A stretch of 64,000 nt of DNA from Brachyspira pilosicoli. Lineage in GTDB: Bacteria > Spirochaetota > Brachyspiria > Brachyspirales > Brachyspiraceae. The DNA is taken from NCBI RefSeq assembly GCF_008016535.1, contig NZ_SAXY01000025.1, positions 1-64,000 of the forward strand, written 5' to 3'. The position numbers and the translations under genes were made by a program. Below the pieces are notes generated by a model. It was not told the DNA's origin. It saw only the letters and a program-made list of their open reading frames with translations, and did not search any database. Shown in pieces: positions 6,431-61,172 of the stretch; positions within the stretch are counted from its first letter, which is position 1; each line of letters begins with the position of its first letter.

Positions 6431-6591
6431 TTTATTCAACTTTTTCCCGTAGCAAAAAGTACAATTTATTTAGCATTATACTTAAAAATATGTATCAAAT
6501 AATGTAGAATAAAACTCAATTTTAGTTTAAAAATGCAGCCTTTTTGGTTCTTTGTGGCAATACCCACAGGTACTTCCTTCGGTCGCAGTTT
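6431..6591. repeat. Dispersed modular repeat, locus 1
   Basis: Contains two blocks of a repeat family found at several places in the window. One is CAACTTTTTCCCGTAGCAAA at about 6438. The other, about 6535-6591, contains GCCTTTTTGGTTCTTTGTGG and the GC-richer unit CTTCCTTCGGTCGCA. The second block abuts and truncates IS copy 2, and the transposase frame reads on into it. Confidence 0.6.
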
Positions 6592-7186
6592 GTATAGATT
6601 TTATCCTAAAAGGTGAAGTTTTTAAGACATATTTTAAGAAAGATAAAGCACTATAAGGTGTTTTCTCTTCATAGATTTGCCTCCAACTATAACGAGTAGC
6701 TAAATCTACAGCTGTGAACTGATAAACTGTTTTTCTGCCTAATTTGATATATTTAGTGTCTATTTGAACTATTTTGCCCTCTTTTTGTATTTTAGAGACA
6801 AATTTTCGTTTATCATATCGCTTCTTTTTCTTTTTTGTTTTATATCTCCAAAGATTATTTCTTTTTAGTACATTCTCTATAGCTGTAACACCTATCTTAA
6901 TGCCTTCACGATTTAAATATGCTTTAATATAATGCTTACCTCGATATTCTTTAGTATAGAGTTCAATAATTAAATTAATAGCTTTTTGATTATTAAAGAT
7001 ATTTGGAGAAGTTTTTGGCTTAGTACTAAAATTAGCGACAGTTCCAGTGTCTTTATATTTTTTAAGCCAAGCATAAAAAGTAGATTTGGGTATTTCTTCT
7101 ATCTTTAGAAATCTTTTAATATTTTTAGTTTCTAATGCTTCATCCACTATAAATAATTTAAATTCTGTGCTATAATCTCTTTTCAT
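6527..7186 (-). pseudogene. IS481-like transposase, truncated
   Basis: The 219-aa reading frame equals the first 198 or so residues of the 311-aa intact transposase. It keeps the N-terminal helix-turn-helix and the first catalytic Asp (VQIDTKY), then leaves the family at IQT and continues into repeat DNA as ATEGSTCGYCHKEPKRLHF. The second Asp and the Glu of the DDE triad are missing, so it cannot be active. The departure point is the same as in the copy at 19550. Confidence 0.88.
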
Positions 7187-7284
7187 AGTAGCATCCTTTT
7201 TATTTGTTTTATGTTCAAAATATTATAACAAGGATACTGCTTTTTTTATACTAAAAAATGTCCAATATCTCACACTCCTAAACA
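6592..7284 (-). mobile_element. IS481-like element, copy 2, truncated at its 3' side
   Basis: The outer end near the transposase start is intact, ending at 7284 with the inverted-repeat sequence TGTTTAGGAGTGTGAGATAT on the minus strand. The other end is missing: IS sequence stops at about 6592, where the dispersed repeat begins. Comparison with the complete copy at 53.3-54.3 kb shows that about a third of the element is gone. No target duplication can be defined. Confidence 0.85.
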
Positions 7285-15181: not shown

Positions 15182-15470
15182 TTTTTTTTATTGTTCTTTT
15201 CCCGCCTTCGCACCCATACCTAAAGGTACTTCCTACGGTCGCACCCACAGGCACTCCTTTCAGTCGCAGGCACTTCCTTCGGTCGCTGTGCGGACTTCGT
15301 CAAAGAACAAAAAAGTGCAAATAAAGAATACAAAAAATTATACTAATTTTAAAAAAATATAGGATAACACTATGTATTTTAATTAAAAATTAGTAAAACT
15401 TTATTAAAAGCCAAAACTTTGAAGAAGTCCTCACCAAGTAGCTGCAAGAAAAGAACAATAAAAAATAAAA
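15182..15470. repeat. Dispersed modular repeat, locus 2
   Basis: This fills the 366-base gap between pyrG and the convergent tyrA-type gene. Outer arms TTGTTCTTT (15191-15199) and AAAGAACAA (15302-15310) are inverted repeats. Between them are three tandem units of about 19-25 bases related to GGCACTTCCTTCGGTCGCA, then GTGCGGACTTCGTC. A second block near 15420-15470 contains AAGTAGCTGCAAGAAAAGAA. I see no coding sequence. Confidence 0.7.
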
Positions 15471-19433: not shown

Positions 19434-20417
19434 GATAGTAGAGTATAAATTTGTTAAGGAGTGTGAGATATTGGACATTTTTTAGTATAAAAAAAGCAGT
19501 ATCCTTGTTATAATATTTTGAACATAAAACAAATAAAAAGGATGCTACTATGAAAAAAGATTATAGCACAGAATTTAAATTATTTATAGTGGATGAAGCA
19601 TTAAAAACTAAAAATATTAAAAGATTTTTAAAGATAGAAGAAATACCCAAATCTACTTTTTATGCTTGGCTTAAAAAATATAAAGACACTGGAACTGTCG
19701 CTAATTTTAGTACTAAGCCAAAAACTTCTCCAAATATCTTTAATAATCAAAAAGCTATTAATTTAATTATTGAACTCTATACTAAAGAATATCGAGGTAA
19801 GCATTATATTAAAGCATATTTAAATCGTGAAGGCATTAAGATAGGGGTTACAGCTATAGAGAATGTACTAAAAAGAAATAATCTTTGGAGATATAAAACA
19901 AAAAAGAAAAAGAAGCGATATGATAAGCGTAAATTTGTCTCTAAAATACAAAAAGAAGGCAAAATAGTTCAAATAGACACTAAATATATCAAATTAGGCA
20001 GAAAAACAGTCTATCAGTTCACTGCTGTCGATTTAGCTACTCGCTATAGTTGGAGGCAAATCTATGAGGATAAAACACCTTATAGTGCTTTATCTTTCTT
20101 AAAATATGTATTGAAAACTTCACCTTTTAGGATAAAATCTATACAAACTGCGACCGAAGGAAGTGCCTGTGGCAACAATGGTATAGAATATACTTATCGC
20201 TGTATTAATACTCCTAAAATCAATATTTTTGATGAATACTGCTTAAAAAATAAATTAGAGAGGAGATATATTCCTATAGCAACACCAAGATACAATGGCG
20301 TAGTAGAAAGAGTACACGGTATAGACGAAAGAGAATTTTATTCAAGATTAAATAAAAATATCACTGTAGAATTATTAAGAGAAAAATTAAAAGAATATAC
20401 ACATTTTTATAACAATC

Positions 20418-21439
20418 TGCACAGGTGCCAAACATATTGCAGTTAGGAATTCCTTAATTTATTAAAGTATAGCATAGGTGTATCATAATTTAAAGCAGAA
20501 TGTATTCGTTTATAATTGAAAAAATGATTATATTTTTGTATGTTTTTATTTGCTTTCTCTAATGTTAATTCTTGTGTACAAAAGTCATAAAATTCTTTTT
20601 GGTCTTGTCATTGTGTACTCTCTACTACACCATTATACCAAGGTGATGCAATTGGACTATAAACCCTTTTAATATAGTTTTTCTTACAAAATATATCTAA
20701 TGGGTGTTCAGTATTAAATGAATGTTTACGGTAAGTAAATTCTGTACCATTGTCTGTTTGAATACAATGTACTCTAAAAGGAAAATAATCTATAAGTCGT
20801 TTCATAAAATCAATGGTACTGTATGGACTTTTTTCATCGTATAAATATCTAAAGCTCATTCTTGTTGCTATATCTACAGCAGTAAATTGATAATAATGTA
20901 TTTCTCCAAAAAAAGCATATTTAACATCTATTTGTACCTTTTCTCCTGCTTCTTTAATATAAATAGCATGCTTTCCTTTATGTTTTCTCTTAATTTTTTT
21001 CTTTTTACTTCTATACAAATTATTTTCTTTTAGAACAGTTTCTATAGCTGTTGTTCCTACTTTAATGTCTTCTAACTCTAATTGTTTTTTTATTTTTAAT
21101 TTACCATAACCGTATAATTTTCTTATTTCAATTATTCTTTTAATAATCTTTTTATTTTTCAATTTATTTTTATTATTCTTAGGTTTAGTAGATTTAGGTT
21201 TTATAATAGAATAAGTTTCTAATTGGCTTTTCCAATAATAATATGTTCTAATACTAATCTTATATTTTAAAGCTAATACTTCTTTATTTTTAACTTTATT
21301 AATTTTTAGAACTATCTTTTTTCTTTGATTTGAAGTATATTCTTTCATAGGTATTCCTTTAAATTTGAACTATATATATTATAAGGAATACCTACTTTTT
21401 TAAACTAAAAAAACGTGCAATATGTATGGCTCCTAAACA
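20418..21439 (-). mobile_element. Second IS481-like element nested in copy 3
   Basis: This 1,022-base element has imperfect inverted ends TGCACAGGTGCCAAACATAT and (right, reverse-complemented) TGTTTAGGAGCCATACATAT. It is flanked by a perfect 15-base direct repeat ATTTTTATAACAATC at 20403-20417 and 21440-21454. The duplicated target is part of the host transposase gene, and the continuous sequence is seen in the intact copy at 53.3 kb, so the insertion is directly demonstrated. It encodes one transposase frame on the minus strand. Confidence 0.93.
20443..21348 (-). pseudogene. Nested IS transposase with an in-frame stop
   Basis: The frame from 21348 to the stop at 20443 would be 301 aa. It holds an N-terminal helix-turn-helix, a basic linker rich in KKK, and DDE positions in VQIDVKY, IQTDNGTEF and NGVVES. 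A TGA at about 20608-20610 interrupts it after NGVVESTQ, where related transposases have an Arg (a CGA to TGA change would explain it). Downstream codons QDQKEFYDF and HSALNYDTPM are still in frame and family-like. A single nonsense mutation has probably inactivated it. It is about a third identical by eye to the host IS transposase. Confidence 0.85.
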
Positions 21440-24649: not shown

Positions 24650-24805
24650 TTTATTCAACTTTTTCCCGCCTTCGCGGTGCGGACTTCGTCAAAGTTGCAA
24701 AAAGTGCAAGTAACAAGATAACACTAAATATTAATAATTATACTTTATTAAAAAGAAATTATTAAATTTGAGCTAAATTAAGCCTTTTTGCTTCTTATGG
24801 CAATA
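24650..24805. repeat. Dispersed modular repeat, locus 4
   Basis: CAACTTTTTCCCGCCTTCGC is followed by GGTGCGGACTTCGTCAAAGT and TGCAAAAAGTGCAAG, so the arms CAACTTTTT and AAAGTTG pair. A separate end block, AGCCTTTTTGCTTC, lies near 24781. It separates the convergent MATE and DJ-1-like genes and could act as a transcript end. Confidence 0.6.
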
Positions 24806-53300: not shown

Positions 53301-54335
53301 TGTCATGGAGCCATAGATATTGTACTTTTACTTGCTATAATATTTTTGATTCTTTCTTTGATTGTAATATAACCTAACGAAGAAATCAATCTTTGATTGT
53401 TATAAAAATGTGTATATTCTTTTAATTTTTCTCTTAATAATTCTGCAGTTATATTTTTATTTAATCGTGAATAAAATTCTCTTTCGTCTATACCGTGTAC
53501 TCTTTCTACTACGCCATTGTATCTTGGTGTTGCTACTGGAATATATCTTCTCTCTAATTTATTTTTCAAGCAATATTCATCAAAAATATTTATTTTAGGA
53601 GTATTAATACAGCGATAAGTATATTCTATACCATTGTCTGTTTGTATAGCTTGTATCTTAAAAGGTGAAGTTTTTAAGACATATTTTAAGAAAGATAAAG
53701 CACTAGAAGGTGTTTTATCTTCATAGATTTGCCTCCAACTATAGCGAGTAGCTAAATCGACAGCAGTGAACTGATAGACTGTTTTTCTGCCTAATTTGAT
53801 ATATTTAGTATCTATTTGAACTATTTTGCCTTCTTTTTGTATTTTAGAGACAAATTTACGCTTATCATATCGCTTCTTTTTCTTTTTTGTTTTGTATCTC
53901 CAAAGATTATTTCTTTTTAGTACATTCTCTATAGCTGTAACACCTATTCTAATGCCTTTACGATTTAAATATGCTTTAATATAATGCTTACCTCGATATT
54001 CTTTAGTATAGAGTTCAATAATTAAATTAATAGCTTTTTGATTATTAAAGATATTTGGAGAAGTTTTTGGCTTAGTACTAAAATTAGCGACAGTTCCAGT
54101 GTCTTTATATTTCTTAAGCCAAGTATAAAAAGTGGATTTATTTATTCTTTCCATCTTTAAAAATCTTTTAATATTTTTAGTTTCTAATGCTTCATCCACT
54201 ATAAATAATTTAAATTCTGTGCTATAATCTCTTTTCATAGTAGTATCCTTTATTTATTTTATATATCAAAATATTATAACAAGGATACTGCTTTTTTTAT
54301 ACTAAAAAATGTCCAATATCTCACACTCCTAAACA
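53301..54335 (-). mobile_element. Complete IS481-like element, copy 4
   Basis: The 1,035-base element has inverted ends TGTCATGGAGCCATAGATAT at 53301 and (minus strand from 54335) TGTTTAGGAGTGTGAGATAT. It is the only full-length uninterrupted copy in the window and serves as the reference for the others. I find no obvious target duplication in the flanks, unlike copy 3; flanking deletion or recombination may have removed it. Confidence 0.9.
53303..54238 (-). CDS. IS481-like transposase, apparently intact
   Basis: The 311-aa protein has an N-terminal helix-turn-helix (STEFKLFIVDEALETKNIKR), a second DNA-binding segment to about residue 115, a basic stretch TKKKKKRYDKRK, then the DDE integrase core: VQIDTKYIKLG near residue 141, IQTDNGIEYTY near 198 and NGVVERVHGIDEREFY near 244. 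All three acidic residues are present. The stop codon lies inside the terminal inverted repeat. The single frame and the NGVVERVH...REFY signature fit IS481 rather than the two-frame IS3 family. Confidence 0.93.
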   Translation of the reverse strand: MKRDYSTEFKLFIVDEALETKNIKRFLKMERINKSTFYTWLKKYKDTGTVANFSTKPKTSPNIFNNQKAINLIIELYTKEYRGKHYIKAYLNRKGIRIGVTAIENVLKRNNLWRYKTKKKKKRYDKRKFVSKIQKEGKIVQIDTKYIKLGRKTVYQFTAVDLATRYSWRQIYEDKTPSSALSFLKYVLKTSPFKIQAIQTDNGIEYTYRCINTPKINIFDEYCLKNKLERRYIPVATPRYNGVVERVHGIDEREFYSRLNKNITAELLREKLKEYTHFYNNQRLISSLGYITIKERIKNIIASKSTISMAP

Positions 54336-54428
54336 TAATTTATTTTTAAGCTATTGCAATAAACTTTAACTTATAATATAATAATTTAGATAGTTTAGAA
54401 TAATTTAATTTTTTTTGGAGATAAATCA

Positions 54429-61049: not shown

Positions 61050-61172
61050 GTTTGTCAATTGTTTTGTTGTTCTTTTTCCTGCAGCTCGCACCCATACCTA
61101 AAGGTACTTCCTACGGTCGCAGGCACTTCCTTCGGTCGCGGTGCGGACTTCGTCAAAAGAACCAAAAACAAT
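61050..61172. repeat. Dispersed modular repeat, locus 7
   Basis: GTTGTTCTTTTTCCTGCAGC, then the two tandem units GGTACTTCCTACGGTCGCA and GGCACTTCCTTCGGTCGCG, then GTGCGGACTTCGTCAAAAGA and ACCAAAAAC. Outer arms GTTCTTTT and AAAAGAAC pair. It matches locus 2 (15182-15310) closely, including the flanking TTTTAAGTTTGTCAATT. It fills the 300-base gap before the AraC-type gene. Confidence 0.72.

Follow-up and report, generated by a model that had tools for sequence, protein, structure and literature searches.

Precise insertion of a dispersed 24-nt repeat into the second catalytic Asp codon of IS481-family transposase genes in Brachyspira pilosicoli, and its occurrence in other bacteria

Very small repeats are abundant in bacteria, but proof that they move is difficult to obtain, since one seldom knows the ancestral state. 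The cyanobacterial SDRs, as Elhai et al. are said to have described them in 2008, are dispersed sequences of 21-27 nt that form hairpins with compensatory changes, are nested in other repeats and are confined to a cyanobacterial subgroup, the enzyme concerned being reportedly unknown. The double-hairpin elements of fungal mitochondria are said by Paquin et al. to measure 26-79 nt, and the palindromic elements of Rickettsia are about 100-150 bp long. In PMC2800124, the double-hairpin elements and the yeast GC clusters appear as short hairpin elements of an AT-rich genome, lying mostly between genes and sometimes within them. REP and REPIN sequences with RAYT (PMC3116915 and PMC3733652) are short palindromic repeats present in many copies, and PMC3733652 presents the Rickettsia element as a palindromic repeat that lies in frame within coding genes.

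Here we consider a unit of 24 nt (CGACCGAAGGAAGTRCCTGTGG+2; full form 5'-CGACCGAAGGAAGTGCCTGTGGTR-3') that is present in insertion sequences (IS) and in intergenic repeats of Brachyspira pilosicoli. At this locus it is a transposase gene that supplies the ancestral state, with dozens of sister copies serving as natural empty sites. The window, that is, the whole stretch of 64,000 nt that was analysed (contig NZ_SAXY01000025.1, positions 1 to 64,000), contains the following features, where F1 and F2 denote two diverged IS481 families and A and B two kinds of intergenic hairpin repeat.

19452..20417, plus strand: IS copy 3 (F1), with ORF 19550-20446, from tblastn and rve_3; left end approximate
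20151..20174, plus strand: unit CGACCGAAGGAAGTGCCTGTGGCA in IS copy 3, at CAAACTG^ACAATGG, from alignment
6562..7284, minus strand: IS copy 2, which ends at the unit; right end approximate
6562..6585, minus strand: unit in its GTACCTGTGG variant, where the truncated IS copy 2 ends, followed by the 3' half of a family-A hairpin repeat
53395..54343, minus strand: IS copy 1 (the F1 reference), both sites empty; ORF 53303-54238, 311 aa, intact
20455..21420, minus strand: second IS481-family element (the F2 reference), both Asp sites empty
15228..15304, minus strand: B repeat with three units (GACGAAGTCCGCA...), intergenic
61106..61157, minus strand: B repeat with two units, intergenic
24673..24693, minus strand: B repeat without a unit (GTCCGCACCGCGAAGGCGGG; L244), from reading of the repeats

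The best plasmid match of the host transposase by tblastn is annotated as IS481 (32% identity over 96%), the protein carries the motifs QID, QTD and VVE, and Pfam rve_3 matches it below the cut-off; on its sequence, the host element is assigned to the IS481 family, with a predicted IS481-type transposase having the DDE motif. The element has the ends TGTTTAGGAG..GGCTCCATGACA, and many of its copies show direct repeats of about 13-14 nt. A 3' anchor places F1 at 88 positions of the genome and another anchor places F2 at 15, and the indel scan took in 93 F1 and 24 F2 pieces. In copy 3 the F1 similarity stops at 20417, from where the sequence continues into the terminal part of the F2 element next to it; the ORF of the F2 reference is shortened, with 246 aa versus 301 in several F2 copies. 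It is also noted that C46:13988, C59:540, C74:16209, C84:15920, C85:161 and C89:4179 look like hybrids, with an F2 5' part and an F1 3' part.

The unit is inserted at CAAACnG^ACAATGG, inside the codon of the second catalytic Asp, at the same base in 11 IS copies, namely 10 of the 88 found with the 3' anchor together with truncated copy 2 of the window. The indel scan located it at a single F1 position, 706, where it splits the Asp codon of QTD, and the pairwise scan gave an identical +24 junction in 9 of the 83 F1 pieces spanning this position; the hybrid C89, with the same junction, and copy 2, with its left side, raise the carriers from 9 to the 11 F1-type matches. Two of the carriers, C60:266 and C90:42915, have a common upstream flank and may be one duplicated structure. 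The initial annotation had placed the unit at the same base in copies 2 and 3, had taken the gain in copy 3 to be +24 with the frame kept and had ended the IS of copy 2 at the unit, and all of this is borne out: copy 3 reads QTATEGSACGNNG where the intact copy reads QTDNG, the insert is in frame at one base in the aligned carrying copies with the Asp lost, and copy 2 goes on into half of an intergenic repeat. The Asp codon, described there as replaced, is actually split (G^AC). With the IS copies of this genome aligned, the unit sits always at this one F1 codon and, in F2, at the homologous one. The scope now reaches beyond that single window, to the 88 anchor matches of F1, a further insert site immediately behind the first Asp, and the same lesion in a second IS family.

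The Asp at the site belongs to the DDE motif. The unit is absent from 74 of the 84 F1 copies of the linkage set, and in the aligned copies that lack it the insertion site is GAC or GAT, which keeps the catalytic Asp; therefore the unit came in. An origin of the unit as native IS sequence is rejected on these grounds and on its presence in unrelated contexts. No target duplication is seen at the IS site; this, with the length of 24 nt, sets the unit apart from a MITE with its terminal inverted repeats and target duplication. Among the genomes of the genus, the IS-type junction was seen in the present one only. In F2 the unit occupies the homologous codon in 1 of the 20 spanning pieces.

How the unit reached so many copies can be read in two ways. 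One reading, to which we give somewhat less than an even chance, is that there was a single entry of the unit, into one F1 copy, and that transposition in trans and gene conversion, once into F2, did the rest, with any present-day mobility of the unit being unnecessary. It agrees with the identical junction in the scanned F1 copies, with the mosaic character of the IS copies and the existence of F1/F2 hybrids, and with CAAACAGACAATGGTA at the second-Asp site, common to the F1 and F2 references. By contrast, the junctions in F1 are of two alleles (T..C and A..T), and the F2 carrier has junction letters of its own, a private unit variant and F2-type letters on both sides of the unit, about 8 nt off on the left and 12 nt on the right, which would limit a conversion tract to a very short length.

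The tree and the linkage bear on the same question. In a quick tree of 64 F1 copies made with the inserts taken out, in which only 6 of the 61 inner branches are strongly supported, the unit-bearing rows are scattered, requiring 8 changes for 8 rows, while the insert at the first Asp requires 5 for 6. For the linkage, in which 6 of the 84 copies (2 of the 10 filled ones) were dropped beforehand, D' between insert and SNP is 1.0 at -2, +1, +10 and +11, as a single insertion would have it, 0.58 at +4, 0.61 at +49, and 0.06-0.28 at the twelve remaining SNPs within 60 nt, whereas the mean D' between SNPs is 0.68 at 3-12 nt, 0.54 at 12-25 nt and 0.42 at 25-40 nt. Thus, apart from some exceptions, the insert is linked to most SNPs 10-40 nt away less than SNPs are on average linked to each other, which speaks against a single insertion. 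The linkage data lean towards repeated insertion or very short conversion tracts, favouring neither of the two over the other. Of the two explanations offered in the initial annotation, repeated insertion at one site, or else a very local transfer, thus draws some support from the scatter in the tree, the weak SNP linkage and the F2 carrier, and spread of a defective copy in trans draws some from the frameshifted first-Asp copies C49:75449 and C58:154, around which perfect direct repeats flank two different sites. These direct repeats fit movement of dead copies in trans, and with it the single insertion, which combined with gene conversion accounts for the IS pattern almost as well as the reading that we prefer, in which the unit itself is mobile.

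Among F1 copies with enough sequence, a full-length ORF is present in 43 of the 51 empty ones versus 1 of the 11 insert-bearing ones, and the hybrid C89, which was counted with F2, keeps its full-length ORF despite the unit. The transposase of unit-bearing copies may well be inactive, to judge from the lost Asp. A shared function of the insert-bearing copies, such as a dominant-negative protein, is unlikely because only that one F1 copy in 11, besides the hybrid, has a full-length ORF.

Besides the unit, the same IS families contain further short inserts rich in GC, which lie close to the first Asp, to the catalytic Glu or to the 3' end; several of these, like the presence of the unit far beyond the genus, had not been foreseen in the initial annotation. 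A different insert, of net +19, occupies position 536, within the codon that follows the first catalytic Asp, in 6 of the 72 spanning F1 pieces, and shifts the reading frame. Three inserts coexist in one F2 copy, C38:66848. The first, located one or two codons past the first Asp, is a piece of B repeat (1 of 21); the second is the unit, at the second Asp (1 of 20); the third, close to the 3' end, is GGCGAATGCCCGCAGATGCG, which C25:18395 has as well (2 of 15). F2 relatives in other genomes of the genus (G014, G022 and G023) have TGCCGCAGGCACGCAGAGCG a few codons before the catalytic Glu, and further inserts are present in G005, G010 and G024. Catalytic codons are frequent, though not the sole, places of insertion, and the data do not indicate targeting. 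Targeting to hairpin loops as a rule for the IS sites is unsupported (six sites, combined p 0.13), although the second-Asp site of F1 is a hairpin centre (top 2.6%). Reading of the letters gave CAAAYAGAYA as a candidate target motif near both Asp sites, at differing offsets.

We now turn to the dispersal of the unit. The query TGCGACCGAAGGAAGT, consisting of its first 16 nt and the preceding base, has exact matches in the window at 20149-20164 (plus strand) and 6572-6587 (minus strand), and at up to 3 mismatches 7 window matches, versus 0.02 expected from shuffles. In the genome (2.76 Mb, 113 contigs), 90 near matches at up to 2 mismatches were obtained and none with the reversed control. The 63 distinct contexts that were read are IS copies and the A (CTTCTTTTG..CAAAGAAG) and B (GACGAAGTCCGCA..GCGAAGGCGGG) repeats, inside both of which the unit is nested; in the 30 B repeats read out of 85 places, units are present in 9 and lacking in 21. 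The repeat context TTCTTTTG, with the unit within it, is common to this genome and Brachyspira records. As to the intergenic repeats listed in the initial annotation, those at 15.2 kb and 61.1 kb stand, with three and two units, while the one at 20.1 kb is the IS copy itself. Three side observations may be put here: L096 (G012) and L102 (G013) look like chimeric repeats, with halves of different kinds joined through the unit; in L251 (C38:103106) the module of a B repeat is joined to some 40 nt from the first-Asp region of F2, a mirror image of the B-module insert in F2; and a run of CTCACAG heptamers is found near the fused repeat, within 1401-1800 of L251.

The nesting of units in A and B repeats, the chimeric repeats joined through the unit (copy 2, L096 and L102) and the F2 piece fused to a B repeat could also be explained if the unit were not itself a mobile element but the loop module of longer intergenic repeats; recombination at short homologies or hairpin template switching would exchange it, and the IS would have been hit by a patch. 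This explanation is unlikely, for the IS site and the sites of RUG322 and KSB1 described below have gained exactly 24 nt with no surrounding repeat, and several phyla have these 24 nt next to differing flanks.

Within the genus, the unit at up to 3 mismatches is present in 22 of the 26 genomes, with the reversed control giving 0. A scan of 84,980 species (257 billion bases) with a degenerate 23-mer, for which arithmetic gives about 0.1 chance matches, yielded at least 99 stretches; among the matches listed, 40 are from Brachyspira, 28 from Pseudomonadota, 15 from Bacillota, 6 from Poribacteria, 3 from Campylobacterota, 3 unassigned and 1 each from four more phyla. Named carriers other than Brachyspira among the matches listed are Kangiella aquimarina, K. 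shandongensis, Oleiagrimonas soli and Marinithermofilum abyssi, the remaining ones being MAGs or uncultured assemblies, in which misbinning is possible. Note that the 23-mer of the scan starts with G, with some copies in the genus being preceded by A, and therefore any rule that the unit always follows G is partly built in.

The identical 24 nt stands in unlike flanks across several phyla, and empty and filled sites recur there. In one genome, clostridial RUG322, CCTTCGGACTGA^GCACTC is present with and without exactly 24 nt; TTGAGG^GAGG of a KSB1 record is likewise present in both forms; and further pairs are found within a Poribacteria MAG and when an actinomycete is compared with a Calditrichota MAG. 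At some of the sites outside Brachyspira a GC may have been duplicated, and such GC-flanked sites, for example that of RUG322, can equally be read as 22 nt with a duplicated GC. Stems of at least 6 bp hug the unit in 7 of the 43 distinct non-Brachyspira flanks (permuted mean 0.93, maximum 5) and in 0 of the 15 Brachyspira flanks. No unit match was obtained in viral contigs with the exact pattern, nor in plasmids, phages and E. coli genomes; for the plasmids, E 0.01 by arithmetic just admits an exact match of 24 nt, and at E 1 the sole match, a weak one, was to Streptomyces (80% identity, E 0.9). In L298, from a Campylobacteraceae MAG, the unit is inside a long open frame of 585 codons that runs off the stretch, possibly an in-frame insertion in a protein gene. 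Tandem arrays of units with a period of about 24-25 nt are seen in L289, L313 and L321, from Oleiagrimonas and a betaproteobacterial MAG. In a literature text search, no paper was found to contain any of four 15-16-mers of the unit, and the literature on Brachyspira repeats, among the matches listed, does not name it.

Concerning the structure, covariation across 72 distinct units picks out pairs 5-9 and 15-23, with 0 of 2000 shuffles as good, and positions 5 and 9 make a Watson-Crick pair in 196 of 213 contexts, with 0 of 5000 shuffles as good, the shuffles in both cases ignoring relatedness. The closing pair of the second hairpin gives no covariation signal in the 213 contexts (757 of 5000 shuffles as good), and the 72 distinct units give none for one long hairpin. 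The unit probably forms two adjacent mini-hairpins, for which the covariation argues and against which the energy folding argues, the latter preferring one imperfect long hairpin (-3.0 kcal/mol, z -2.7). The three other inserts of the genome all have two strict 3-bp mini-hairpins, versus 0.2-0.8% of shuffles, by a test devised after looking at the same three inserts; the unit itself fails this strict test. In the window, single mini-hairpins are not enriched (165 versus a control mean of 179), and adjacent pairs number 5 versus a control mean of 1.5 and maximum of 4. Rfam gave no gathering-score match for the 10 that were tried among 99 unit-bearing stretches.

As for the mover, it might be a REP-associated tyrosine (Y1) transposase, with the unit as a loop variant of the REP sequences that it moves. 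Several units outside Brachyspira do lie in hairpins ending in CTAC, the GTAG tag reversed, and Y1_Tnp (PF01797) is present in 18 of the 24 non-Brachyspira carriers searched versus 5 of the 14 control genomes. However, no GTAG tag came to notice when the A and B repeats were read, and PF01797 gave 0 matches in this genome (G000), as in all 6 Brachyspira carriers searched and 6 of the 24 others, so that 18 of the 30 unit-bearing genomes searched have Y1_Tnp and 12 have none. We consider this explanation very improbable, with a Y1 transposase rejected as the mover and Y1-driven REP identity rejected for this genome.

Based on the above, we propose that the unit is likely a non-autonomous, very small mobile repeat of 24 nt that inserted and then spread among the IS copies. 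The unit would be moved, as DNA or through RNA, by an enzyme. In this genome it went into IS481-family transposase genes precisely and with no target duplication at the IS site, and the insertion keeps the reading frame while removing the second catalytic Asp. The broken copies would then multiply passively, being mobilised in trans by intact relatives, and recombination (gene conversion) among the approximately 90 mosaic IS copies would carry the insert between backgrounds. A broader proposal, put forward tentatively and as clearly short of even, is that the unit is a stand-alone 24-nt mobile element that is the same across phyla, inserts precisely and is moved by a trans-acting machine. That near-identical units, together with sites that are precisely empty or filled, exist in unrelated bacteria raises a testable question, namely, what inserts 24 nt?

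Finally, we compare the unit with the known systems. It resembles the fungal double-hairpin elements and the yeast GC clusters in being a short hairpin element of an AT-rich genome that is mostly intergenic and at times in genes, and differs from them in that they are mitochondrial. With REP and REPIN sequences it has in common the many short copies and, for some units, a hairpin with a GTAG-like end, but a Y1 transposase was not found in this genome and the unit is without a tag of its own. In-frame insertion into a coding gene is what it has in common with the Rickettsia palindromic elements, but at only 24 nt it would be smaller than those elements are said to be. Set against the SDRs as they are reported to be, the unit appears to behave like them: its 24 nt lie within their 21-27 nt, its 90 matches make for many dispersed copies, it is nested in other repeats, and it has precise empty and filled sites. 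Unlike the SDRs, with their reported confinement to a cyanobacterial subgroup, it extends over Brachyspira and several other phyla, and a single genome has many IS copies of both the empty and the filled kind; if it is indeed a stand-alone element, mobile DNA this small would be shared by many bacteria rather than being an oddity of cyanobacteria.
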